A stretch of DNA of 37,480 nt from the IMG/VR virus record IMGVR_UViG_3300037189_023166, positions 1-37,480 of that record; one strand, given 5' to 3'. A program made the translations under genes and the position numbers. This DNA is from a virus. The notes below the pieces were generated by a model. It made no database searches. It saw only the letters and a list, made by a program, of their open reading frames with translations, and was not told the origin of the DNA. Of the stretch, positions 11,936-26,391 are shown piece after piece. Every line of letters starts with the position of its first letter. The stretch's first letter is position 1.

Positions 11936-13312
11936 ATGAAAATTTTAAGAAATTATGTTGACCAAAATATAGTAATTAATACCGAAACCGATATTCAAAC
12001 TAATGCGGGATGGGAAGAAAGTTTACAAGAATTTGAAACTGAAATCCTAAAAGAAATTGTCAACCCAATTGAAAATTATGAAACGGTAAGATATATTCAT
12101 GCGCCATATACAACAACTAATGGTGGGTTAACATTCCAACAAGTTGATTTATGGTTTGAATTTTATTTTTTAAGTGGCGGAACATATTCAACAGACTATA
12201 CTTCGGCAGGTATAACACTTCACGAAAACACACAATTTCTAACTCAATTTAGCAAATCATTTTTTAGAATTGAATTTTATAAAACACCTGGCGTAGTTGT
12301 TAATAATGTTTTAACTTGTCAACCACCAACAAGAACCAATAGAAAATTAGTTTTTGCTAAAAATTTACCAACAACGTTAAGTGAAAAATTTCATTTGAAT
12401 TCAGTTGCAGACACAATACATATACCAATATTTCATGCATCTAACTATAAAAACAGGGAGATGATTTACCAATTTTGGTTCCAAGATGAATCGGTTTTAG
12501 CTGAAACAAATTTAAGTGGAACAACAACAGGTAACACGTTTTTCATGACTGCTAAATTTTACAATACAAAAGATGGTTCTATTGTGGATTTTACAAATGA
12601 CGATTTTTGTCATACGTATGAAATAACTGAACAGTTTGACATGTATTATCAAGTTGATTTTGATTACGTCAATCATAATTACATGATTTATAGATATAAT
12701 GGAACTAAAGGTTCAAGAATTGGTGAAAGTGGTGACCCCATTTTATTTTATGAAAAGGGTGGTAAAATCAATTGTGCAACACCAACACCAACACCTACAC
12801 CAACAAAAACACCAACAAATGGACCAGCGGTTACACCAACGTTAACACCGACTCCAACAATTACACCTACAAGAACATCTTCAACACCATACAGTCAACC
12901 CGTTGATTTTACATTGGCTAATGATTGTGAAAATTTTGGCGTTAGGGTTGCAAACATGACTGGCGGCCATAATCAATTTCAAGGAACTGGTTTGTATTTT
13001 AGTGCGGCAGAAGCCACAGGTGCAACATTCTTTAATATCTCACAAATAAATAACACCACGGGTTATAATGCATCAAGGATATCAGGTAATTTATTTTATG
13101 CAAATGGAGTTACAATGTATGTTGCTGTTAGAGATTTACAAAATCCATCAAACATAAGTGTTAAATCAATTGTTTTATCTAACTGCACACCACCATCTCC
13201 GTCACCACCAGTAAATCCAAGTGATTTATATACTAATACCATAACACTAAGTTACATTTCTTCTTTCCAAAGTAGTAAATGTGAAGCCTACACTAATTGC
13301 ACGTGGGCATAA
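11936..13312 (+). CDS. Fibre-like virion protein with Thr/Pro linker
   Basis: A 458-residue protein in three parts. Residues 1 to about 280 form a globular, beta-rich domain (KILRNYVDQNIVINTETDIQ at the start) of unknown family. Residues about 281-320 form a Thr/Pro linker ([16 protein letters not shown] onward). Residues about 321-458 form a Ser/Thr/Asn-rich C-terminal domain ending NTITLSYISSFQSSKCEAYT. That last piece resembles the first strand and first Cys of the repeated fibre module seen downstream, but it stops at TAA before the module is complete. The following gene is in the same frame with no other stop between them, so this may be a split gene. The ATG abuts the preceding stop. 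Likely part of a fibre or baseplate appendage. Confidence 0.6.
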   Translation: MKILRNYVDQNIVINTETDIQTNAGWEESLQEFETEILKEIVNPIENYETVRYIHAPYTTTNGGLTFQQVDLWFEFYFLSGGTYSTDYTSAGITLHENTQFLTQFSKSFFRIEFYKTPGVVVNNVLTCQPPTRTNRKLVFAKNLPTTLSEKFHLNSVADTIHIPIFHASNYKNREMIYQFWFQDESVLAETNLSGTTTGNTFFMTAKFYNTKDGSIVDFTNDDFCHTYEITEQFDMYYQVDFDYVNHNYMIYRYNGTKGSRIGESGDPILFYEKGGKINCATPTPTPTPTKTPTNGPAVTPTLTPTPTITPTRTSSTPYSQPVDFTLANDCENFGVRVANMTGGHNQFQGTGLYFSAAEATGATFFNISQINNTTGYNASRISGNLFYANGVTMYVAVRDLQNPSNISVKSIVLSNCTPPSPSPPVNPSDLYTNTITLSYISSFQSSKCEAYTNCTWA

Positions 13313-13336
13313 AATATTAAAAAAAATTTAAAAAAA

Positions 13337-13548
13337 ATGTCAAGACCCTGTGATAAAGGAACATATTTTTATGATAGTGTAGGATATTTGGCTGTAGGTC
13401 AAAAGTTTTATGCTACATCTAACGGTGGAGATGTAATGCAAGGCTATTATTCAGGAAAATATAATGGAACTTTTTACATTTTTACTGTTGATGCTGGAGG
13501 ATTTATAACGGCGATGGAAACAATTTCATCATTAGGATGTGCGGGAAC
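13337..13548 (+). repeat. Fibre C-terminal module, copy 1
   Basis: Module with GYYSGKYNG and a terminal Cys (SSLGC). It lacks the usual N-terminal Ser-Thr...Ala-Cys strand, which may be the piece at the end of the preceding gene. Confidence 0.5.
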
Positions 13549-13867
13549 TACACCAGACCCAACACCATCACCAATACCACAAGGTAATTCATTATTATTA
13601 GCGTTTAGAACCACACAAGGGCTTTCTTGCACAATTGGGTCTGAAATCAGTCAAAGAACGGAAATGTGGTCAAACGCTAATGAATCAAGTTTACAAAATG
13701 TAGCAGATTCAATTACACCATCAGATAGTCTATTGGATTTAAATTATTACATGTATGCTGACGTCAATATGACAACCACTAAAAATAACGGATATTATTC
13801 TGATGGAAACTATTGGTATCGTGTATACGGTAGTGCAGGTAAAATAATAGATGCGGGTCGCTGTTAA
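13337..13867 (+). CDS. Small fibre protein made of two Cys-bounded modules
   Basis: A 176-residue protein without signal peptide, made of two beta-rich modules joined by a Pro-rich linker (PDPTPSPIPQG, residues about 74-84). The first ends in GYYSGKYNGTFYIFTVDAGG and a Cys. The second ends in GYYSDGNYWYRVYGSAGK and AGRC at the C-terminus. Both match the module repeated in the downstream fibre proteins, so a receptor-binding or tip function is the best guess. The gene lies in the same reading frame as the gene before it, separated by one TAA and eight A-rich sense codons. It could therefore be the detached C-terminal part of that protein, or be produced by readthrough. ATG 13337 is the only good start. 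Confidence 0.55.
   Translation: MSRPCDKGTYFYDSVGYLAVGQKFYATSNGGDVMQGYYSGKYNGTFYIFTVDAGGFITAMETISSLGCAGTTPDPTPSPIPQGNSLLLAFRTTQGLSCTIGSEISQRTEMWSNANESSLQNVADSITPSDSLLDLNYYMYADVNMTTTKNNGYYSDGNYWYRVYGSAGKIIDAGRC
13583..13864 (+). repeat. Fibre C-terminal module, copy 2
   Basis: Module with GYYSDGNYWY and terminal AGRC. The 17-nt string GGATATTATTCTGATGG at 13790-13806 is identical to 24391-24407 in copy 6, which points to duplication or recombination at the DNA level. Confidence 0.6.
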
Positions 13868-13889
13868 TTCAGGATAAAATAAAAAATCG

Positions 13890-13902
13890 TTTATTTATAG
13901 TA
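13890..13902 (+). promoter_or_regulatory. Candidate phage late promoter before the 1265-aa fibre gene
   Basis: TTTATTTATAGTA with core TATTTAT at 13892-13898, only 5 nt before the GTG start at 13904. A transcript starting the usual few bases downstream would be nearly leaderless. Confidence 0.4.
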
Positions 13903-13903
13903 G

Positions 13904-16900
13904 GTGAAAAGGACAAAATATTCCATAAAAAGAGATAATATAGTATCAGGTTCGTTAATTGATTTAACAACCCACGCATGGCTTGATAGCAATGGTAATA
14001 CTATTCCTTGGAGTGGAATGACAACAGGTAGCTTTCCTGTTAGTGGAAGTGTTATTTATAATACTAATACAGGCAGCCTATACGAAGGTTATTACCAATA
14101 TGATGGCAATTTATGGCATCAAATAACTGGTTCACCATCAGTGGTCTCAAGCAAAATATACCCTGATTATCAAATCCCAATTTATTTGGATTCAAAAGCC
14201 GATGAAATGGGTCAGATGGTTGATTTTGATGGTAATGTTGGTCAAAATACAATCAGTGCAAATTTTGCTTATTCAGGTGTATGTTATGGTAGTGGTTATA
14301 CAATTACCGTATGGAACACAACAAATTTTGGAAAACAAAAAAATAATTTAAAAGCTAATTTTACGGTTGCTTGGGATAAAGACAATTATCACGATGATTT
14401 ACCTGCAAATTCTTCTAAATCTTTTACATATACACAAAACGGGACATATAACTTAAAAATATTCATGCAGGCGCCATGGACTACGGAAGTTATTACTAAA
14501 GAAGTTGTGGTTGTATGTTTCGTTACACCAACACCAACAACTACACCAACAAACACGGTGACACCTACAATTACACCTACGAGTAGTATTACACCAACTA
14601 TTACGGTTACACCAACAATTACACCTACTAATACCTTAACCCCAACAATTACACCAACAGTAACTCATACATCCACAGTAACACCAACGGTTACTCAAAC
14701 ACATACTCCAACAGTTACAGTAACTAAAACACCACTTTATTGTGAATTAGGCGGTAATGCAACTTATGTAATGCCGACACCTACACCAACCGTAACAATA
14801 ACAGTTACACCAACAACCACACCTGCGATAACTCATACACCTACTGTAACACCAACGATTACACATACGCCATTGTATTGTGAATTAGGTGGATCAGCAG
14901 AATACATTATTCCAACACCAACACCTACTCCGACAAATACGGTAACACCTACTTTAACGCCAACAAATACTGTTACACCAACGTTAACACCTACAGTAAC
15001 TAAAACACCACTTTATTGTGAAATGGGTGGTAGTGCAGAGTATATCGCACCTACACCTACTCCAACTGTAACTTCTACAACAACACCAACAGTTACACCA
15101 ACAATTACTATCACTCAAACTGTAACACCTACAAATACACCAACAAACACGGTAACACCTACGGTGACTAAAACGCCGCTTTATTGTGAGCTTGGCGGTA
15201 GTGCAGAATATATAGCCCCTACACCTACACCAACGGCTACACCAACTGAAACGCCAACATTAACACCTACCGCAACTATAACACAAACAGTAACACCTAC
15301 TAGTAGCATTGCACCAACAGTTACACCAACAAACACTGGTACACCAACGTTAACACCTACAGTAACTAAAACACCACTTTATTGTGAATTAGGCGGTAAT
15401 GCTACGTATGTTGCACCTACACCTACCCCAACTGTAACTTCTACAACAACACCGACATTAACACCAACAGTTACACCAACAAATACCATTACATTAACGG
15501 TTACACCTACAAATACAATTACGTCTACTGTAACACCAACAAATACAATTACGTCTACTGTAACACCTACAGTAACTAAGACACCACTTTATTGTGAGTT
15601 GGGAGGTAATGCCACATATGTCGCACCAACACCTACACCAACAAATACAGTTACAACAACACCAACTGTGACCCCAACTATTACTAATACGTCAACTGTA
15701 ACTGTGACTCCAACTAATACTCCAACTGTAACCTTAACTCCTACTAACACACCTACAGTTACACCAACAAACACTGTTACACCAACGTTAACACCTACGG
15801 TGACTAAAACGCCATTGTATTGTGAACTTGGAGGTAACGCACAATATATTGCACCTACACCAACCCCTACACCAACAAATACGGTTACACCGACTGTTAC
15901 AGTAACACCAACATCAGCAGTTACTTCAACACCAACACCTACACCAACCATTACACAAACTATAACACCAACAAGTTCAATTGCTGCAACTTCTACAGTT
16001 ACACCGACAAAATCTGTTGCCGCAACACCAACGGTTACGCCAACAACAACAGTAACACCATCATATACACCAACCAAAACAGTTACACCAACTGTTACAC
16101 CGACTGTGACACCTACAAATACCGTAACACCGACGGTTACGCCAACGTTACCTGCATTAATTCTTTCTGTTTCAAGTTCAACAGTTCAATCATGTTATAA
16201 TGTTAGTGATGCATCATTTACATTAAGTGCAAGTGGTGGTAATGGTGCTTCATATGAATATTCAAAAGATAATGTAAACTGGCAAACAGGCACAACATTT
16301 AGTAGTTTAGCGGGAACAACTTATACAGGTTATGTTAGAAATAGTAATAGAACAGGAACGGTTACATCTGTTTCAGTTGGTAGTTTGGCAAGAAGTGCAC
16401 CAAGTGCAACAATTACAACATCAAACTACAATGGTTATAGTATTGCATGTAATGGTGGAACAGATTCGATTGTAGTTTCAGCATTAACAGGTGGCCAAGG
16501 TGCACCGTATCAAGTTAAATTAAATTCTGGTGGAACATATCAAACAACAACAACATCAAGAACATATTCAAGTTTAGGTGCGGGTTCATATACAATATAT
16601 GTTAAAGATTCTGCGGGTTGTGAAAATACAATTTCAGTTACATTAACTCAACCGTCTGCAGTTACATCAACAATATCAGCATCATCTTTACCAACATGTT
16701 ATAATGGTGCTAATGGTTCAGTAACAGCTACAGCGGGAGGCGGAGTTGGCGGCTATACATATTCTTTAAATGGCGGAGCTTATCAATCAAGTGCTACATT
16801 TAGTAGTTTAGCTAATGGGACATATAGTATCACAGTTAAAGATGCGAATGGTTGCACAGCAACATCGTCTTCAACTACATTGAATAGAACAGCACCAAAT

Positions 16901-17701
16901 GCAACATTTACGGTATCCAACTTTAATGGTTATAGTATAAGTTGTAACGGTGGTGCGGATGGTTCAATTGCTGTAAGTGGAGGCTCAGGTGGTTCTGGCG
17001 CAGGTTACAGTGGTTCAACAGATAATTTAACATATTATTCATTACCAAAAACATTTGGTTCATTAAATGCAGCAAATAGTCCATATACGATATTCATTAA
17101 AGATAGTAGTGGTTGCGTTCAATCATATGATTTCACAATTACACAACCACCTGCACAAACAGCAACAGCTTCAGTTATAACTACCGACGATGGAACTGGT
17201 ATTGGACGTATTGATGTGGCAGTTAATGGAGGCGCAGGATTGAAAACAATTAGATTATATATTGACTCATCAACACCATATACAGATAATAGTAAAACAA
17301 CATTGGTTGCAACAGCGACAAACGTAGCAAACAATACAACATATTCGTTTACCGGATTATTATGTTCAGTTGGCCGTCATTGGGCTGAGATTACGGATGC
17401 AAATGGTTGTGTTAAAAATAGTAACTCAGTTCAACTTTGTGGATACTACTATATCGGTAAGTATACTTCAAGCAATACAATACAATGTACACCATCAGGT
17501 AGCTTAGTTAATACATATTTGTCTTATACCGATTACACAAATTATGTGGCAGGAGGTAATGTATTAGCACCAGGTATGATAGTCTATAAAGATGATATTG
17601 GAACAGTATTCACAACAACGAGAATTTATGACCCTGCAACAACAAATATATGGGGTTTAAGTTCAGGCGTAATTAGTGCTAATCCATACCAAAGCTGTTA
17701 A
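13904..17701 (+). CDS. Long tail-fibre protein: Thr/Pro stalk with CELGG inserts, SprB-like repeats, C-terminal module
   Basis: A 1265-residue fibre candidate. The start is GTG at 13904: the codon just before it is TAG and no ATG occurs near the N-terminus. Order of parts: an N-terminal beta-rich domain (1 to about 205); a Thr/Pro tract with Thr at almost every second position (about 208-749), interrupted by seven copies of a 14-residue insert with core LYCELGG; four SprB-type repeats of about 75-80 residues plus one divergent copy (about 752-1178), each with CNGG...G, YTY/YSL and VKDxxGC elements; and a C-terminal Cys-containing module. SprB repeats are known from the Flavobacterium gliding adhesin. 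An extended, host-adhesin-like stalk with a terminal binding module is inferred. An intrinsic terminator follows. No chaperone gene or autoprocessing motif is apparent. Confidence 0.75.
14525..16150 (+). repeat. Thr/Pro-rich stalk repeat with seven LYCELGG inserts
   Basis: About 540 codons of alternating xThr (TPTVTPTN-like), so a Thr codon recurs about every 6 nt. Inserts begin at 14735, 14873, 15011, 15179, 15377, 15587 and 15815. Spacings are 138, 138, 168, 198, 210 and 228 nt, all multiples of 6 and never decreasing toward the 3' end. Synonymous Thr and Pro codons vary, so the pattern is held at the protein level, although several long blocks are also identical in DNA. Confidence 0.9.
15511..15570 (+). 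repeat. 30-nt tandem duplication inside the stalk
   Basis: The blocks starting at 15511 and 15541 are identical over their first 27 nt (AAATACAATTACGTCTACTG onward) and differ only in the third base of a Pro codon (CCA/CCT). This looks like a recent in-frame duplication that adds ten residues. Confidence 0.9.
16158..17440 (+). repeat. SprB-like repeats in the fibre protein (four clear, one divergent)
   Basis: Units of roughly 75-80 residues with Cys near the start ([22 protein letters not shown]), a Gly-rich turn, a tyrosine strand, FSSL/YSSL and then [12 protein letters not shown] or [12 protein letters not shown]. The fifth unit (about 17160-17440) keeps ITDANGC but is otherwise divergent. 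The pattern matches the SprB repeat family of Bacteroidetes surface adhesins. Confidence 0.8.
17441..17698 (+). repeat. Fibre C-terminal module, copy 3 (divergent)
   Basis: Starts [11 protein letters not shown] and ends PYQSC at the C-terminus of the 1265-aa protein. It keeps the Cys-to-Cys layout and the G..vYkDd strand but lacks a clear GYYSDG. Confidence 0.45.
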
Positions 17702-17725
17702 ACCATGGTATGCAAATAATATAAT

Positions 17726-17753
17726 AAAACCCCTTTATTTAAAGGGGTTTTTT
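17726..17753 (+). terminator. Intrinsic terminator after the long fibre gene
   Basis: 11-bp perfect stem AAAACCCCTTT (17726-17736) / AAAGGGGTTTT (17741-17751) with loop ATTT and a T-rich tail through 17753. The A-rich 5' side makes it potentially bidirectional. It lies 24 nt after the stop. Confidence 0.92.
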
Positions 17754-17770
17754 GTTTAAATTATCTCTGA

Positions 17771-17783
17771 AGATATTTAATAA
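17771..17783 (+). promoter_or_regulatory. Weak candidate late promoter after the terminator
   Basis: AGATATTTAATAA with core TATTTAA (one mismatch to TATTTAT) at 17774-17780, 4 nt before the ATG at 17785. It sits where a new promoter is needed after the terminator. Confidence 0.3.
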
Positions 17784-17784
17784 T

Positions 17785-18348
17785 ATGCCAGACTTGGGAA
17801 CATTAACATTTACAATACCATCTTACTTATTGGAAGATGGGACAAGTGCACCCGCAACCACGGTTAATCAAAATTATTTAAACAATTTAGATTACGTTGC
17901 GAATACAGGTGTAACCGCAGGATATACGGGAATGACATATTATGCCATAGGAGGAAGTCGTATTCAAGAAAAGAAACTTTACGGTGGTGGGTATAGTGGT
18001 GTAACAACTGGAATGACAGAAGACAATGTTATTTACAGCGCATATAGTTTCACCTACAGTGGTCAAACTATGGGTAATCAAACATTATATTATGCCGATT
18101 TTCCTGATGGTCATACAATGATTACGGGGCATACAACAGGTTTTACAGAACAAGCGGTTTTTAATTCTGTCCTAACTCGAAATGAACATTTCCTTGGATT
18201 TGTTGAACAACCAAGAATATATTCGGACATTTTTGTTGAAAGAGGAAAAATGGGAGTTTTAGAGAATAACCACAGATTGGGAGAAATTGGAACATTAGGT
18301 GACCTTGAGTATTATGGAAACAAATACTTTAACGTCAAAAAACTATAA
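17785..18348 (+). CDS. Virion structural protein, unknown (187 aa)
   Basis: A 187-residue protein beginning MPDLGTLTFTIPSYLLEDG. A TTG at 17752 in the same frame would add 11 residues, but it overlaps the terminator T-run, so the ATG at 17785 is chosen. The protein is rich in Gly, Thr and Tyr. It has a middle segment of short strands (YSGVTTGMTEDNVIYSAYSF) and a more conserved-looking C-terminus, VERGKMGVLENNHRLGEIGT then DLEYYGNKYFNVKKL. No signal peptide, no membrane segment, no known family. It lies between the long fibre gene and the 306-aa gene, so a tail or baseplate role is inferred from context. Confidence 0.6.
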   Translation: MPDLGTLTFTIPSYLLEDGTSAPATTVNQNYLNNLDYVANTGVTAGYTGMTYYAIGGSRIQEKKLYGGGYSGVTTGMTEDNVIYSAYSFTYSGQTMGNQTLYYADFPDGHTMITGHTTGFTEQAVFNSVLTRNEHFLGFVEQPRIYSDIFVERGKMGVLENNHRLGEIGTLGDLEYYGNKYFNVKKL

Positions 18349-18350
18349 AA

Positions 18351-18363
18351 TTTATATTTATTA
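18351..18363 (+). promoter_or_regulatory. Candidate phage late promoter, exact consensus
   Basis: TTTATATTTATTA at 18351-18363, identical over all 13 nt to the copies at 2556 and 29121. It lies 10 nt before the ATG at 18374. Confidence 0.5.
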
Positions 18364-18373
18364 ATAAAAAGAT

Positions 18374-19294
18374 ATGGCAGTAGGAAGTTATGGAATGGTA
18401 AGGCCGGCAGATGTATCACCTGCAGATGTAGATATCTATTATCATTTTGTTGCTGATAGAACTACCACATCTCAGGTTACATTACAAAAGTTGTCACCAT
18501 CAGCAAATTATCTAACTCCGGTTTATCAAAACTCAGGAACAACAGATAACCAAAATGCGGTGAATAAAGAATTGTTAGGTGGTTTATATAATTTAAAGCT
18601 AACATCTGATAAATTCTCACAATTAGGTATATACACACTTCACATAAGACCAAAACAAATTAGAGCGTCAATCATGGATTGTGGAGTCTTAAGCTCACTT
18701 CCTTCAGTTAGAGGTTTAGTTATTGATTTAAATAATATAGCGGCTGAAGATAGAGCAAAATTTACCCCACAAGGGATGGTCGGATATCGTGTAGAATATC
18801 TAAACGATGACTACACAAAGACACCTAATTTTTATAGAATTGTTACATCAAGTTTCTATTGTCAACCAATAGTAGCCAATTTATCAAATACAACGGATAA
18901 AGCAATTAGATATAGATATGTTGACCAATCAAGCAACTTAGTTTTTTTAACGTTAACACCAACATCCTCACCATCAAGTAGACCGAACTTTGTTCCGTTT
19001 ATTGGTAAACCTGGTCAAAATATTATATTATCAAATACATATTTCAATCCAACAACAATTGAAGTTGAAATGGTTGAACATGATGCATCTACATTGGCTA
19101 ATGCTCTTTACGGTAATCAAACTAAAGCAGTTGCTCCAGGTATTTACACAATTTACGATAAGGATAATCAAATCTATAAACAATACAACTTATACGAAAT
19201 CAAAGACGAATTCAACGATACTCTATATGAAGTTAGAGAAGAAAGGAATAATATCGATGAGACGCTTGGTTTCAACAACATAACTAACGTTTAA
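18374..19294 (+). CDS. Virion structural protein, unknown (306 aa)
   Basis: A 306-residue protein beginning MAVGSYGMVRPADVSPADVD. It is beta-rich and of mixed composition without repeats or linkers. It includes GIYTLHIRPKQIRASIMDCG, and ends with an acidic, charged segment (YEIKDEFNDTLYEVREERNN) that may be helical and serve as an interaction tail. I cannot assign a family. Its last base overlaps the ATG of the following 1528-aa wedge candidate (TAATG), which suggests equal production and perhaps a shared complex. It could be a small wedge component comparable in position to T4 gp53; that is speculation from location only. Confidence 0.6.
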   Translation: MAVGSYGMVRPADVSPADVDIYYHFVADRTTTSQVTLQKLSPSANYLTPVYQNSGTTDNQNAVNKELLGGLYNLKLTSDKFSQLGIYTLHIRPKQIRASIMDCGVLSSLPSVRGLVIDLNNIAAEDRAKFTPQGMVGYRVEYLNDDYTKTPNFYRIVTSSFYCQPIVANLSNTTDKAIRYRYVDQSSNLVFLTLTPTSSPSSRPNFVPFIGKPGQNIILSNTYFNPTTIEVEMVEHDASTLANALYGNQTKAVAPGIYTIYDKDNQIYKQYNLYEIKDEFNDTLYEVREERNNIDETLGFNNITNV

Positions 19295-22200
19295 TGGCAA
19301 CATCAAGAACGGTAAGATTAAAAATACCAAATCAGGCTGCGAGCGGAGCGGATACATTTAGTGACAATCTTGTTGGTAATCAAATTACCGATGGAACTGG
19401 TCAATTGACCAATAGCAACTTTGCGTTAGATAAAGTAATAGTTGAAAAGGATAGTAAAGAATTTAAAACAGCAAAATTTTCTGAATTCTTAACTTTAGAT
19501 AGTTTAAAAAAAGAAACATCCGCACCAACAACACAAGACACAACTGATGGTTCTGTTAGTCAAACCAAAGATGAAAAAATTAAATTCAGAAGTTCAAAAA
19601 ATGATGCAAGTAGGTCTTTGTTTGGTTCTTTAAAAGACAGAACATTTATTTCGTTAAAAAAAATAATTACAAAGTTTCCTGCCGCCCTTTATGCTGACCC
19701 CGATTCTGTAGTCGGTATTTCTGAATTTACAGCAAAAAATATTACATATAGTAAAGTATCTAATATAACTTCATTTGATATTGAGTATGGTAAAATATAC
19801 AATCCATTAAGTATTAATTTAGTTGCACCAAATAGTGCAGATTCATTAACTACGGATAATGATATTAAAAACATATATTCAGCTTATAAAAAATATGTTT
19901 TAGTTTATAATGGTAATCAATATGATGTTGTGGGATATGTTCAACCAACATCATTAAATTATAACACAACAACATTTAGAGTTAAAGGTTTACCATTTGG
20001 TGATAATACTGGTGTTAGTGACTCTTTCTTAATAAGACCAAATGATGGAATAACTGAAGAGTTTTTCTTAAATTTAGATGATTTAGAATCTTTATTATTG
20101 AATAGAGATACAAGTCCAATTTATCAAGTAAATTTCAAAGTTCCAAGAGATTCGGCAGACTTAACGGGAACCGAAATGACAACATTAAGTTATAACTGGC
20201 CACTATCAAAAGACGGTTATAACATACAAATCGTAGGTTTAGATTACGAGGAATATGTTGACGCTTTAAGTAGCACAGCTCAAGAGATTGATGACTATAA
20301 ATCAAATTTAGTTGTTAGATTTTTAACGGCGCCCCAATTATTTGAATTTGATACCGATGACCAAAGAGCACAAGCAATTTTTCAATTATATGGTCAATCA
20401 TTCGATAGAGTAAAAAAATATATAGATAATATTGCTTACATGAGAAATGTAAGTTATGACGGTATCAATAATGTTCCTGATGTATTATTAAAGAATTTAT
20501 CAGAAACATTAGGGTTCAATACTGTTAATTTATTTGACGAAAAAACATTAGACGAATCATTATATAGAAAACACGATACACAATATACTGCACTTGATTC
20601 AGGTAAAAGCTTAGTTGAGGCTGAAAACGAATTTTATAAAAGATTAATAATTAATCTTGTTCATTTATATAAATCAAAAGGGACTAAAAACGCATTAACA
20701 TTTTTTTTAAAGTTTTTAGGTGCACCCGAACCATTAATTAAAATTGACGAGTATGTTTATGATGTTGATTCATCATCATTACCTACGTCAACACAAGATG
20801 ATATATATAACACAATTAATGGTAATTTTGTTGAAACTATCATTACAGGTTTTTCACAAACAACTTATGCATACTCAACGGGAACAACAATACACACAAC
20901 AGCATTAACTCGAGATGAATATCCAATTGACACATATAATGTCCCAAAAAGTGTTTCAAATGTTAGTGATGACATTTTCTTTCAAAAAGGAGCTGGTTGG
21001 TATGATTTAACAATAGACCATAGGTCACCAAATATTACTGATACAGCAAATTCAGTATTAACTGGTAGAATTAAAAGTGTTGTAACTAAATCAGCACCAT
21101 TTACATATGGAGAAGATTATTTTCAAAATTTTAGAAAATTCCCTGGTTTAGATTATGGGTTTCAACTTACAGCAAGAGTAGTTGATAACAAAGGTGATGT
21201 TGATAATGTATTATCTGATTTTACACTTAATAGAAAAAATATTGGAATATATTTGTCATCAGCACGAGCTGTGGATTATGATATTTGGAGACAATCAAGA
21301 AACTTAGAACTTACTTTTGGTTCGTTGGGACCACAAACAGGATACACATTTGCGGAGTATTTAGATTCAGCATTAAATGAAGTTATTAAAAATTCACATG
21401 TTGCTAAATTTAAACCTCACTATCCTGATTTAGTTACTGTTTACAATTCATATATTAGTAGCACACAAATTACACCATATGATTTTATTGCAATAAATGA
21501 TTTCATTTATAAAATGAGTCCAATGTGGACTCAACTAATTGAACAATTTGTTCCTGCTACAACATTGTGGACTGGCGGTAATTTAATTGAAAACAATAGA
21601 TTCCAAAGGTCAAAATATACATATAAAAAACCTTGTCAAGTATTTGAATTAATTGACGACACGTATCCTGAACCAACAGGAACAACCACTTCATATTTTG
21701 TAGATGAGATAAATTATCTATGGAATCAATTAGGATTTGTGCATGACGGATCTAATGATTATCCTCAATTAAGAGATTGGCTCGAAGATGGCTACATGCA
21801 ATTCTTTCCTATTTTTAAAATAGATGGTGTAACATATTCAGGTTCAACAGACCATGTATTGATTCCACCACCACCAATCCATGCGGGATATGTTGATGCG
21901 GAAAACTATGAAGCTAAAGCAGCTTACACAGGTTATACTGGTTGCACGTATGCACTATTATCAGGCGCAACAACAAATATTAGTCCCGTAAACGGTCAAT
22001 ATGAAAATGCGAGATTATATAAAGATAAAAGTTCAGGAGATGACGAACAAAATATAGATTTTGTAGGATTAAAAGCAATGTGGAAACAAGCAATTGTTAA
22101 CACAGTAAGATACATTAACACATATAGTGGTTATACTGGAACAAATAATCAATTAACATTTACACCTAATGCAGTTGGTAAAGATACTGCTTATGGAAAT

Positions 22201-23880
22201 TCTATCAATAATCCAAGTATTACAGGAACAACAATATTACCAATATTATCATATGAATTTTTTGTTAATAAAGATGGTGTTGAAAAAGTAAGATTTAAAT
22301 CATACAAATATGGTCCACATAATTGCACAGTAATGAATTCATTTGATTTCTTATTTGCATATGGTTATGCGTCACCAGACCCAACACCGACTGTTACACC
22401 AACAATGACGGTAACACCAACACACACACCAACTGTTACACCAACACCGACTGTTACACCAACTATGACCGTCACACCAACAATGACGGTAACACCAACA
22501 CAATCAATACCATGTGTAATTAATGCTAGCGCTGAATATAGAAGTAGCGCATGTCCGGTAACACCAACACCAACACCTACACCAACATCTGCAGCAATTG
22601 CTGTTACGCCTTCAGTTACCGTAACACCATCAACACCTTTACCAGGTTGTGGTAGCACAGTTTCAGGTAGTTGGGCATCAGGAACTAATGTTGTTCAAAC
22701 AAGATATCTTGATTTAACGGCGGCAACAAATGGTGGTTTAATTACATTACATTATACAGCAAATGAAAGACCTGACAGATTTAACATATATGATAGTTCA
22801 GATAATTTAGTTGTTACTAGTGGATGGGTTGGTTCGGATTATAACTATACAGGTCCGTGGACAGGCGGTGGTGGCATTGCTGATACTGATGGCGATGGAT
22901 ATATGTCATTTACATATGATAGTTCTAAAACATATCGTTTAACTGTTGATGTCGGACCATGGAATCCTGCTAATCAACTTTCAGATAGTTGGTCGGTTAC
23001 AATTACATGTGCAGGCGTCATAGCACCAACACCAACAGTTACAACATCACCATCTATGACACCAACACCAACACCAAGACAAAGATACCAAGTGCAATTA
23101 TGTGCAGGTAGTGGTGGTAATGGAACACAAATTTATAACATAGAAATTGCATTATCGGTTACAGTTGGTAAAACATATACATTATTAGGTTATCCTGGTG
23201 CACCTGCATTAATGAATGGTGCAAATTGTTGGAATATTAATAATGCTAATTTTGATAACACATATGATGGAACTGCAACTTATAATGAAGAATATCCAGA
23301 TTGTGCACATTGTTCAGCGGCCCCATTAACCGCATATACGGGTAGCACATTATTAAATGCGTGTAATGGAGTTAATGGTCAAACAACATTATGGTATAGA
23401 GGTAATTTAGGCGTTGGAACTGTATTATATAGTGATAGAAGTTTATTAGCGGATTACTTAGTGCCAACACCGGGTTATTATTACGATGTTGATAATGATA
23501 GAGTTTTACACGTTGGTGTGTTTAGTCAATATCCAAATATTCCATCACCAGAAGATGGGTATGTTACCGACATTCAATATTGTCCTGCACCAACACCAAC
23601 ACCAACACCTTCACCAATTGGAGTAGCGTTAGGTGGATATATGGCATTATCTTATGGTAGCACAGGACCTGGTGCATGTTCAGGAAGTAGTGGAACAATT
23701 AATGTTTATTATGCTTCTACTGATCCACATGGAGGTGATTTATGGTCAGGAACAACATATTATAATTTTAATGGTTTCCCATTTGATGGTAGTTCATATG
23801 GTTATTTTTCCGATGGAGTTAGTTATTATGGAACAATAAGTGAAAATGGTTATTACCAACAAGAAGGAACTTGTGAATAA
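19294..23880 (+). CDS. Probable baseplate wedge protein (P2 gpI / T4 gp7-like core) with C-terminal adhesion modules
   Basis: A 1528-residue protein. The first ~1030 residues look like a structural core. A segment at about 440-485 (EFYKRLIINLVHLYKSKGTK, then ALTFFLKFLGAP) resembles the KGT helix pair of P2 gpI-type tail proteins, the counterpart of part of T4 gp7, and a DEIDDYKSNL-like region lies before it. From about residue 1029 the protein switches to Thr/Pro linkers (TPTMTVTPTHTPT) separating a Cys-bounded segment (SIPCVINASAEYR, like the CELGG inserts upstream), a beta-sandwich with DTDGDGYMSF, a Cys-rich domain (NCWNINNANF), and two copies of the repeated C-terminal module ending GTCE. 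The wedge assignment is moderate; the fused surface modules are clear. It overlaps the previous stop (TAATG). Confidence 0.65.
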   Translation: MATSRTVRLKIPNQAASGADTFSDNLVGNQITDGTGQLTNSNFALDKVIVEKDSKEFKTAKFSEFLTLDSLKKETSAPTTQDTTDGSVSQTKDEKIKFRSSKNDASRSLFGSLKDRTFISLKKIITKFPAALYADPDSVVGISEFTAKNITYSKVSNITSFDIEYGKIYNPLSINLVAPNSADSLTTDNDIKNIYSAYKKYVLVYNGNQYDVVGYVQPTSLNYNTTTFRVKGLPFGDNTGVSDSFLIRPNDGITEEFFLNLDDLESLLLNRDTSPIYQVNFKVPRDSADLTGTEMTTLSYNWPLSKDGYNIQIVGLDYEEYVDALSSTAQEIDDYKSNLVVRFLTAPQLFEFDTDDQRAQAIFQLYGQSFDRVKKYIDNIAYMRNVSYDGINNVPDVLLKNLSETLGFNTVNLFDEKTLDESLYRKHDTQYTALDSGKSLVEAENEFYKRLIINLVHLYKSKGTKNALTFFLKFLGAPEPLIKIDEYVYDVDSSSLPTSTQDDIYNTINGNFVETIITGFSQTTYAYSTGTTIHTTALTRDEYPIDTYNVPKSVSNVSDDIFFQKGAGWYDLTIDHRSPNITDTANSVLTGRIKSVVTKSAPFTYGEDYFQNFRKFPGLDYGFQLTARVVDNKGDVDNVLSDFTLNRKNIGIYLSSARAVDYDIWRQSRNLELTFGSLGPQTGYTFAEYLDSALNEVIKNSHVAKFKPHYPDLVTVYNSYISSTQITPYDFIAINDFIYKMSPMWTQLIEQFVPATTLWTGGNLIENNRFQRSKYTYKKPCQVFELIDDTYPEPTGTTTSYFVDEINYLWNQLGFVHDGSNDYPQLRDWLEDGYMQFFPIFKIDGVTYSGSTDHVLIPPPPIHAGYVDAENYEAKAAYTGYTGCTYALLSGATTNISPVNGQYENARLYKDKSSGDDEQNIDFVGLKAMWKQAIVNTVRYINTYSGYTGTNNQLTFTPNAVGKDTAYGNSINNPSITGTTILPILSYEFFVNKDGVEKVRFKSYKYGPHNCTVMNSFDFLFAYGYASPDPTPTVTPTMTVTPTHTPTVTPTPTVTPTMTVTPTMTVTPTQSIPCVINASAEYRSSACPVTPTPTPTPTSAAIAVTPSVTVTPSTPLPGCGSTVSGSWASGTNVVQTRYLDLTAATNGGLITLHYTANERPDRFNIYDSSDNLVVTSGWVGSDYNYTGPWTGGGGIADTDGDGYMSFTYDSSKTYRLTVDVGPWNPANQLSDSWSVTITCAGVIAPTPTVTTSPSMTPTPTPRQRYQVQLCAGSGGNGTQIYNIEIALSVTVGKTYTLLGYPGAPALMNGANCWNINNANFDNTYDGTATYNEEYPDCAHCSAAPLTAYTGSTLLNACNGVNGQTTLWYRGNLGVGTVLYSDRSLLADYLVPTPGYYYDVDNDRVLHVGVFSQYPNIPSPEDGYVTDIQYCPAPTPTPTPSPIGVALGGYMALSYGSTGPGACSGSSGTINVYYASTDPHGGDLWSGTTYYNFNGFPFDGSSYGYFSDGVSYYGTISENGYYQQEGTCE
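23326..23583 (+). repeat. Fibre C-terminal module, copy 4
   Basis: Starts LTAYTGSTLLNACNG, has VGTVLYSDRS and GYYYDVDNDR, and ends DIQYC. Preceded by a Cys-rich domain and followed by the linker [11 protein letters not shown]. Confidence 0.7.
23641..23877 (+). repeat. Fibre C-terminal module, copy 5
   Basis: Starts MALSYGSTGPGACSG, has YGYFSDGVSYYGTISENGYY and a C-terminal GTCE. Forms the end of the 1528-aa protein. Confidence 0.75.
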
Positions 23881-23895
23881 AAATAAAAAAGAATT

Positions 23896-25470
23896 ATGGC
23901 AATATCGGGAATCATAACAATAGCGGATACAACAACAGCAAGTATAACATCTTTTGATTTATATTCATGCACGTCATCAAGTAATAGTTCTTGTAGTGGA
24001 ACAGCTTTTGCTACGAACGTATCGAGAGCAAGCTTGTTGGATGGTTATTGTAGTGATTTAATTCCAGATGGAACAACATATATAAAAGTTAATGCAAATA
24101 GCGGTGCTTGTCAAAACATTAACCCTGCTATAGTTGAATTATCGGGTGTTCCAATAATACCAACGTCAACACCTACACCAACACCGGCAGCACCAACACC
24201 AACACCAACACCAAGTAAAGCACCGGGTAGCGGATTGACAGCACATTATTTATCAACGGGTTCAACATATGCTGAAGCGTGTGCAAATTTCAGCATACAC
24301 ACGGACCCATATTATGTTTACAATGACGCCACATTACAAGCAGGTAACGTATTATGTCAAAACAATAACTGTTCAACCAAAGCACTTAATGGATATTATT
24401 CTGATGGGACAAATTATTGGCTTGTGGGAGATGGCGTTGGAGGAATTAGTGCAGGACCAACATCATGCTCAATTGTTGATATAACAACAATTGATTTAGG
24501 TGGTGTTAATTGTAGATTAGTTGGTTCTTGTAATGACAACGGCACATGTTCGGTGAGATATAATATTAACTTTGCAAATGGTAGACCATCTGCAACTCAA
24601 GTATTTGTTCAACCTATAGGTAGTAATACAGCATCTGTTGCTGTTTATAACGATTTAGGTAATAACACAGATGTTTATTTAGATTATAGCGAAAGTAATG
24701 GGTCACAATCAATTAATTTTAGATTAATATTAAAATCATTCCCAAGTGGAAATGAAATATGTAGGTCAGGAGATTTAACTTTAAATCACAATCATGGTGG
24801 TGCACCATGGAATATGATTAGTGCATGTAGTAGTGGTACTAGTGGAACTTCAGGTTCGTCAGGTGGTGGTGGAACATCATATTACTCATTCACTGTAGGA
24901 ACTGGTTATACGGCGCATGATGCTTGTGCAGATGCGGTAAATAATACATTAACATTATATACAACCGATAGTGCAAATAGAAATTTGGTTGACCAAACGT
25001 CATATTATAGTAATAATAGTGGAGCATTATTTACAAGCTCAGGATTCATACGCTTCTCTGACGGAACAAATTACGGTATAATAGATCAATATGGTGTTTA
25101 TTATCAAACAGATGCATGCACCAATTTACCGGTATTAGGAACAATTACCGGATTCACATATGATACTCAAGGAACATATGATTACGGTAGCGACACAACA
25201 TCATATGTGACAACCGTAACTGGACATACTAATGGTGTAGGTCCAATTATAGCGGGTGTTTCTAATTTAGCATTAAGTGTTAAAGTATATTCCGCAAATA
25301 GAGATGAATATGCTTACGTGATGTTAGGTGGAACTGTCGGTAGTGGAACGGAGGTAGTCGGTGAATATTCTTGGAATGGTGGATATGACCCGTATATACT
25401 TACATTATGTTTCGACCAATGGTATGCGCAAGCACAAGGTAATGTTGACCCAACATTAAACTGTCATTAA
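23896..25470 (+). CDS. Modular tail-fibre/adhesin protein (524 aa)
   Basis: A 524-residue protein. Residues 1 to about 85 (ISGIITIADTTTASITSFDL... with YCSDLIPDGTTYIKV) form a small domain that also starts the next protein, presumably the attachment end. A Pro/Thr linker ([17 protein letters not shown]) leads to the first repeated module (TGSTYAEACANF ... GYYSDGTNYW ... TSC). Then comes a beta-sandwich of about 110 residues (NCRLVGSCNDNGTCSVRYN, with NHNHGGAPWNM), a Ser/Gly linker (SSGTSGTSGSSGGGG), a second module (YTAHDACAD ... FSDGTNYGII ... DAC), and a final beta-rich domain ending in Cys-His. Likely virion adhesion: the architecture of small domains on flexible linkers suits receptor binding, but no specific receptor can be named. 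Confidence 0.7.
   Translation: MAISGIITIADTTTASITSFDLYSCTSSSNSSCSGTAFATNVSRASLLDGYCSDLIPDGTTYIKVNANSGACQNINPAIVELSGVPIIPTSTPTPTPAAPTPTPTPSKAPGSGLTAHYLSTGSTYAEACANFSIHTDPYYVYNDATLQAGNVLCQNNNCSTKALNGYYSDGTNYWLVGDGVGGISAGPTSCSIVDITTIDLGGVNCRLVGSCNDNGTCSVRYNINFANGRPSATQVFVQPIGSNTASVAVYNDLGNNTDVYLDYSESNGSQSINFRLILKSFPSGNEICRSGDLTLNHNHGGAPWNMISACSSGTSGTSGSSGGGGTSYYSFTVGTGYTAHDACADAVNNTLTLYTTDSANRNLVDQTSYYSNNSGALFTSSGFIRFSDGTNYGIIDQYGVYYQTDACTNLPVLGTITGFTYDTQGTYDYGSDTTSYVTTVTGHTNGVGPIIAGVSNLALSVKVYSANRDEYAYVMLGGTVGSGTEVVGEYSWNGGYDPYILTLCFDQWYAQAQGNVDPTLNCH
24235..24468 (+). repeat. Fibre C-terminal module, copy 6
   Basis: Starts LTAHYLSTGSTYAEAC, has GYYSDGTNYWLVGDGVGG and ends TSC. Shares 17 identical nucleotides (24391-24407) with copy 2. 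Confidence 0.75.
24877..25119 (+). repeat. Fibre C-terminal module, copy 7
   Basis: Starts SYYSFTVGTGYTAHDAC, has RFSDGTNYGIIDQYGVYY and ends TDAC. It follows a Ser/Gly linker rather than a Pro linker. Confidence 0.75.
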
Positions 25471-25480
25471 AACTAAAAAC

Positions 25481-25495
25481 TAATATTTATATAAT
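25481..25495 (+). promoter_or_regulatory. Candidate phage late promoter before the 289-aa fibre gene
   Basis: TAATATTTATATAAT with core TATTTAT at 25484-25490, in a 51-nt gap and 31 nt before the ATG at 25522, leaving room for a short A-rich leader. Confidence 0.4.
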
Positions 25496-25521
25496 AACAA
25501 AAAAATAGTAAATTAAACTAT

Positions 25522-26391
25522 ATGTCATTCTTAACTAAAATAACCCTAACAACTGCAGGATCATCAACTGGACCTTTTGATATATACCAAAATTCGGATA
25601 ACTATGCTACGGCGGTAGCTACAGGTGTAACTAAATCCGATTTAGTTGCGGGGTATACAATTTCAGTAAATGATACTACAACAAGTGTATTGGTCCAATC
25701 TTTAGGTCTATGTAACACAAGTAATATTACATTACCAATAAGTGGATTCCCAACATCAACTCCAACACCTACACCAACATTAACACCAACAGCATCCCCT
25801 GTGGGCGCTGGTGTTAGTCATATATCACTTTCAAGTGGTCATACGGTAGCAAGCGCTTGTACTGGTGCAACTCAAACTTATTACTATTCAGGTTCATTTA
25901 TTAATGGTGCACAATTATGGGTAGACGCTCAATTTACAGATAATGCACCTGGTACAAATGGTAGTCCAGTTTATTATTATTCATACGATTTCAATTCAAT
26001 ATATTATATTAATGATAGTGAAGGTCACAAATATGCTTCATCCGAAGTTTGTCCTACAGCGACACCGGTTGTAAACGCTAATTCATATTGGGTGAGCACA
26101 GTAGATGGGCCAACAGCAGCTACTTGTGGTGGTGATGACGTATTTGGTGTTCCTCACACGCAATTAACAGGTTTTACAGTTTATGGTAGTGCAATTTCAG
26201 GTATTTGTGATGCAACAATGATTGTTGATATGCCTGCAATTGTTAAATCTGAAGTTCCGTTTAATGGCACATTCTGGGTTGGTAAAAAAGTTGGTGGTAA
26301 TTTCTACTATAGAAAATATGTCAGAGATTCGTCAGGAACATCAGCAACACCAGATGGAGCATGCGTAGTTTATAATACTCCTTGTAATTAA
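25522..26391 (+). CDS. Modular tail-fibre/adhesin protein (289 aa), paralogue of the preceding gene
   Basis: A 289-residue protein. Its first ~80 residues (FDIYQNSDNYATAVATGVTK, then GYTISVNDTTTSVLV and [16 protein letters not shown]) line up with the N-terminus of the 524-aa protein, so both probably attach to the same site on the virion. A Pro/Thr linker leads to one repeated module (SSGHTVASACTG ... NGAQLWVDAQF ... SEVC). The C-terminal part is different (GTFWVGKKVGGNFYYRKYV, then GACVVYNTPCN) and ends in a Cys-Asn pair. Together the two genes look like a duplicated fibre set with different tips. The function as an adhesin is inferred from architecture. Confidence 0.68.
   Translation: MSFLTKITLTTAGSSTGPFDIYQNSDNYATAVATGVTKSDLVAGYTISVNDTTTSVLVQSLGLCNTSNITLPISGFPTSTPTPTPTLTPTASPVGAGVSHISLSSGHTVASACTGATQTYYYSGSFINGAQLWVDAQFTDNAPGTNGSPVYYYSYDFNSIYYINDSEGHKYASSEVCPTATPVVNANSYWVSTVDGPTAATCGGDDVFGVPHTQLTGFTVYGSAISGICDATMIVDMPAIVKSEVPFNGTFWVGKKVGGNFYYRKYVRDSSGTSATPDGACVVYNTPCN
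25816..26052 (+). repeat. Fibre C-terminal module, copy 8
   Basis: Starts SHISLSSGHTVASAC, has NGAQLWVDAQF and YYYSYDFNSIYYIND, and ends SEVC. The GYYSDG motif is diverged. Confidence 0.65.

Follow-up and report, generated by a model that had tools for sequence, protein, structure and literature searches.

A two-cysteine module of about 70-90 residues occurs some eight times on stalked proteins encoded among the tail genes of one uncultured phage

The window, i.e. the complete stretch of DNA analyzed here, is an IMG/VR virus record of 37,480 bases and carries genes for ribonucleotide reductase, thioredoxin, a gp25 baseplate protein, a wedge-family protein, a RuvC-like resolvase, a primase and SbcCD. 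Judged by this gene content, the window represents the baseplate region of a large phage with a contractile tail and T4-like organization. When the N-terminus of g19294 was used as the query, 41 related loci were found, none of them in the GenBank phage collection; the largest related contig comprises 211,784 bases (designations such as L002 and L046 are labels of the other loci and contigs compared). The genes of interest, g13337, g13904, g19294, g23896 and g25522, reside in a block that also features the gp25 and baseplate-wedge families and is collinear with the related loci. Pfam, PHROG and NCBIfam did not provide an informative match for the module in any of the five encoded proteins.

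The initial annotation described a module of about 75-90 residues with two cysteines that is used about eight times in these five proteins, and this description largely holds (Table 1). At the coordinates given, each of the eight stretches is an open, in-frame sequence. Seven of the copies, located in four proteins, are firmly established, while the eighth (copy 3), located in the fifth protein, is only a possible member. That the copies share a domain was borne out by an independent profile built from 16 modules of other phages, with sequences from the window and its close clade excluded, which recovered copies 1, 2 and 4-8 at 11.0-56.7 bits and matched nothing else in the 81 ORFs of the window. 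The highest score among 306 block-shuffled or reversed controls was 7.2 bits, compared to 11.0 bits for the weakest copy. The external modules had been collected by GYYSDG-type DNA patterns, with both motif and seed profile derived from the window; the resulting profile spans the whole domain, and the cysteines are absent from the collecting pattern. In a leave-one-out analysis restricted to the window, four copies scored above all 1999 shuffles, three were marginal and copy 3 failed, as 487 of the 1999 shuffles scored equally high. Copy 3 belongs to a separate group that is conserved at the C-terminus of proteins of about 2000 residues in relatives and, as far as the sequence goes, could be a distant version of the module.

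Table 1. Module copies, anchors, dock domains and stalks in the window (aa, residues of the encoded protein)
Feature	Position	Strand	Evidence or remark
Conserved anchor of g11936 (aa 1-276)	11936..12763	+	Relatives L006, L010, L012, L022, L028 and L030 stop at the anchor and lack both stalk and tip
Copy 1, at the N-terminus of g13337; short, opening strand missing	13337..13540	+	External profile 11.8 bits, i-E 9e-4
Copy 2, C-terminus of g13337, long inserted loop	13583..13864	+	External profile 29.0 bits, i-E 4e-9
Conserved anchor of g13904 (aa 1-204)	13904..14515	+	Relatives L006, L010, L012 and L022
C-terminal block of g13904 (aa 751-1265, repeats and putative copy 3)	16154..17698	+	52-60% identity
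Putative copy 3 at the C-terminus of g13904; related distantly or not at all	17441..17698	+	Missed by external profile; hhalign against module profile: probability 34.5%, E 4e-4; poor model, pLDDT 61
Conserved anchor of g19294 (aa 7-1029)	19312..22380	+	46-57% identity in relatives
Second shuffled domain, g19294 (aa 1118-1241)	22645..23016	+	42-48% identity; separate genes in L028, L030 and L034
Copy 4, g19294	23326..23583	+	External profile 15.4 bits; leave-one-out 0/1999 shuffles
Copy 5, C-terminus of g19294	23641..23874	+	External profile 11.0 bits; leave-one-out 0/1999
N-terminal dock domain of g23896 (GPF..Y family)	23911..24183	+	Iterated profile i-E 3.5e-21
Thr/Pro stalk before copy 6	24142..24225	+	Sequence
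Copy 6, g23896, AlphaFold-modelled copy	24235..24468	+	External profile 56.7 bits; pLDDT 93.7, pTM 0.83
Copy 7, g23896, behind Ser/Gly linker	24877..25119	+	External profile 20.3 bits; leave-one-out 0/1999
N-terminal dock domain of g25522 (GPF..Y family, as g23896)	25531..25773	+	
Thr/Pro stalk before copy 8	25750..25800	+	Sequence
Copy 8, g25522	25816..26052	+	External profile 13.8 bits; 36/85 identical to module on the L002 homologue of g19294

Several details of the original description need correction. The opening strand ascribed to the module is missing from copy 1, and the copies do not usually reside at or near the C-terminus: such a position applies to copies 2, 3 and 5 only, whereas copy 1 lies at the N-terminus and copies 6, 7 and 8 lie inside their proteins. 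Candidates for a ninth copy at the N-terminus of g13904, in the middle of g11936 or at the C-terminus of g25522 were rejected, as they emerged only from drifted iterations or with shuffle-level scores. The truncated copy 1 is preceded by a strand-like tail of g11936 with a Lys-Cys pair (13223-13340), which lies in the same frame and is separated by one TAA and eight codons. A module split between this tail and copy 1 found no support: 1581 of 1999 shuffles score as high as the tail or higher, and the score of copy 1 drops when the tail is added to it. A recoded stop between g11936 and g13337 was likewise rejected as a special case: all 27 main window genes examined end with TAA, and the gap between the two ORFs resembles ordinary A-rich intergenic DNA.

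AlphaFold predicts a compact and confident structure for copy 6 (26 aligned sequences), in which strands 4-12, 27-32, 56-59, 63-67 and 73-80 and a helix formed by residues 15-21 follow each other in the order strand-helix-strand-strand-strand-strand. Invariance is confined to Cys19 and Cys81 (26/26 aligned sequences, from many contigs), which probably form a disulfide in the modelled fold; the Tyr/Gly hairpin 56-61 (GYYSDG) is the next most conserved element. Foldseek did not match the model to any PDB entry (best E 3.3). About 20 matches were obtained in BFVD with probabilities of about 0.8-1 and query-normalized TM-scores of 0.5-0.8, at E-values of only 0.002 to 2; almost all of them stem from uncultured tailed phages and one is S0A289 from Cellulophaga phage phi17:1. 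A Pfam search with 26 module members (E<=0.1) returned nothing except one weak match to T4_Spackle, and PHROGs did not match the module. As far as the libraries searched (Pfam, PHROGs and PDB) are concerned, the domain family appears undescribed, and the family, the fold predicted for it and the use of the domain on several neighboring proteins of a single phage appear to be new.

The proteins carrying the module are composite. A dock domain of about 80 residues is common to g23896, g25522 and proteins from L112, L046, L103, L028, L030 and L106. The C-terminal block of g13904 sits on a different N-terminus in L002, L007, L008 and L032, and in several relatives the N-terminus of g13904 is fused with g17752 in a single gene. 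The true start of g17752 may be a later ATG. Between g13904 and g17752 (17722-17751), a hairpin-like repeat (AACCCCTTTATTTAAAGGGGTT) is followed by T residues and looks like an intrinsic terminator. In g13904, seven 13-residue beads of the type PLYCE(L/M)GG(N/S)A.Y(V/I) are placed between Thr/Pro stretches (14732-15850), and a similar C.LGG.A motif ends a Thr-rich protein in L112. The C-terminal repeats of g13904 (16154-17430) resemble by eye the SprB-type repeats of gliding Bacteroidota; Pfam did not report a SprB match. The label "wedge-like" that had been attached to g19294 is not supported, since PHROG and Pfam did not match the protein, although genes of the gp25 and wedge families do occur in the block.

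The proposal that the module constitutes a cassette system is, on comparison of the sequences, well supported: the module is found on different anchors within and between phages, anchors carry differing tips and the nearest relatives of the copies mostly reside in other phages. The stretch of g25522 that includes copy 8 (aa 97-267) and the C-terminus of the L002 homologue of g19294, the tip of another anchor, share 37% identity, and copy 6 agrees at 32 of 51 positions with a module that an unrelated L046 protein carries. Homologues of g11936 and g19294 end differently in each lineage, such that the anchor is kept and the tip differs. In pairwise comparison, which is informative for all copies but copy 3, copies 1, 2, 4, 6 and 8 score best against another phage, copy 5 does so narrowly, and copy 7 has copy 5 as its nearest relative. 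As most copies find their best match in another phage and a related phage has one cassette on a different anchor, sequence comparison indicates that the copies are dispersed and exchanged rather than recent duplicates. The second shuffled domain of g19294 and the shared dock domain exhibit an exchange pattern like that of the module. The window contains seven or eight modules as compared to none or one in related contigs, most of which are fragments.

The 17 identical bases noted earlier for copies 2 and 6 are present; they are, however, merely the codons for GYYSDG (P=0.064 for the pair upon codon resampling) and thus no sign of recent duplication. Shared DNA words of at least 12 bases do not occur in any other pair of copies. 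Recent duplication inside the phage was therefore rejected, given that shared words are limited to this one motif and nearest relatives are mostly found elsewhere. A diversity-generating retroelement target was also considered and discarded, as a reverse transcriptase (PF00078) was not found in the 33 records, several of which are fragments.

Relatives of the module are present in cultured phages, where they were reached by fold search only; tblastn of phage GenBank entries with canonical modules or module proteins did not yield matches. S0A289 corresponds in length to gp62 of phi17:1 and has homologues in phi12:1, phi18:1, Calle and phi38:1. The module makes up the C-terminal half of a small protein in these phages (gp62 in phi17:1 and phi18:1, gp86 in phi38:1). 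The A3 profile matches with E-values of 1e-6 (phi38:1) and 6e-5 (phi18:1) and more weakly for phi17:1, and hhalign assigns the Cellulophaga C-terminal halves to the module with a probability of 81% (E 1e-5). The C-terminal half of phi17:1 gp62 exhibits profile similarity, paired cysteines and the G-I-Y-D plus YY...G...C pattern of the family. In Helsingorvirus (39 kb) as well as in Pervagoviridae (72 kb), the module gene is located directly 3' of a tail or tail-fiber gene with overlapping stop and start codons. In Maribacter phage Molly, a BACON domain replaces the module on a shared N-terminal domain. This arrangement in cultured Cellulophaga and Maribacter phages is the best evidence that the module may occupy a surface-tip position. 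In phi18:1, MS/MS notes accompany the neighboring gp58-61 but are lacking for the module gene gp62. Bacterial genomes gave 36 pattern matches, of which only a locus in Pedobacter sp. BS3 is convincing; the identical protein sequence is present in an IMG/VR record. The module relatives in Cellulophaga phages and the single Pedobacter locus suggest a host among the Bacteroidota. Some divergent relatives detected by the iterated profile sit inside very large proteins, the one in L049 with a membrane-like stretch by eye.

Further genes in the vicinity deserve mention. Glycosyltransferase genes (PF11397, GT6, GT2) are located beside Thr-rich module genes in L065 (1522-2823), L112 (5388-6134) and L046 (1568-2383), a hint at possibly glycosylated stalks in distant phages. 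A phrog_4417 protein of unassigned function adjoins module genes in L044 (297-2291), where it is fused to a radical SAM/SPASM part, and in L105 (4561-5502); similar-looking proteins are encoded beside module genes in L106, L107, L046 and L112, so that several unrelated contigs show this arrangement.

It is well known that phage tails swap domains. The closest parallel is provided by the BACON repeats in tail proteins of crAss-like phages, likewise a small, beta-rich domain present in several copies among tail genes of Bacteroidota phages. Eight BACON repeats are present in crAssphage, the domain has partly spread by horizontal transfer in other lineages and its role may be that of a linker and not of a binder (PMC6949934). 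The two are nevertheless distinct: the module profile does not pick up the BACON protein of Molly, the module has no BACON or other Pfam match, BACON copies are arranged in tandem in one crAssphage gene whereas module copies are distributed over four or five window genes, and the invariant cysteine pair is a feature of the module only. The C-terminal halves of Cellulophaga gp62 and gp86 are members of the module family; unlike the window proteins, gp62 and gp86 are short dedicated proteins with a single module and another N-terminal domain, and they are annotated as hypothetical only. Modular receptor-binding proteins such as tail fibers and spikes resemble the window proteins in combining a conserved N-terminal attachment part with exchanged distal domains, and shuffling of their domains is established (PMC10684548). 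In the window, by contrast, one tip occurs on several neighboring proteins of one phage at once, and trimeric fiber, lyase or chaperone domains were not recognized in these proteins.

Our preferred and, on sequence and model, somewhat probable reading is that the module serves as an adhesive tip, exposed at the surface and open to exchange, on tail or baseplate proteins of Bacteroidota phages, as suggested by its position, modularity, stalks and alternation with BACON. The module proteins are presumably part of the virion. Conserved anchors or the dock domain would carry Thr/Pro or Ser/Gly stalks, each with one or two modules at its end or along its length; the baseplate would be surrounded by copies that differ in their variable loops and might bind host surface structures, and recombination between phages would swap C-terminal parts and change the set of tips. 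Receptor binding is plausible by position, because the genes reside in the baseplate/tail region and, in isolates, after fiber genes, where the module alternates with BACON. Counted against the adhesive tip are the missing MS/MS note for phi18:1 gp62, the divergent relatives inside very large proteins, the possible linker role of BACON and the fact that the most conserved part, the GYYSDG hairpin, could be structural.

It is this last point, i.e. conservation being strongest in the core hairpin and the cysteines, that speaks for the module as a structural cap or a folding or assembly domain of tail-fiber-like proteins, which ends or spaces stalks while another domain binds. The internal position of several copies and the location of the Cellulophaga gene directly after the fiber gene, as in fiber-associated small proteins, fit this idea as well. 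A fixed structural part should track its anchor, however, whereas the module moves between unrelated anchors, singly or in pairs, and relatives lack it on the same anchors; we thus regard such a role as unlikely. Still less probable are decorations that bind environmental or host polymers (capsule, mucus, particles) or carry phage-made glycans and serve retention near hosts rather than specific receptor recognition. The stalks are indeed rich in Thr/Pro and glycosyltransferase genes adjoin module genes in more distant phages, but just two records out of 33 contain PF11397, both from outside the window and its clade, and the baseplate position favors host contact. That the copies merely converged on a low-complexity Gly/Tyr/Ser/Thr composition, as their low pairwise identity and the leave-one-out significance of only four copies might indicate, is hardly credible in view of the independent profile, the controls, the invariant cysteines and the confident fold, which contradict it for seven copies, copy 3 excepted.

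A bolder and rather doubtful extension of the adhesive-tip reading is that a new adhesin fold, structurally unrepresented so far, circulates in Bacteroidota phages of differing tail types as a clip-on tip on mucin-like Thr/Pro stalks, possibly O-glycosylated by the phage in some lineages; each particle would then display many tips, and host specificities would be gained and lost by swapping. The family is searchable, confidently folded and missing from Pfam, PHROGs and PDB. In many uncultured phages of Bacteroidota, whose tail-tip proteins usually escape recognition, it flags candidates for host contact, and with Cellulophaga phages phi17:1, phi18:1 and phi38:1 as cultured members the function of the module is directly testable.
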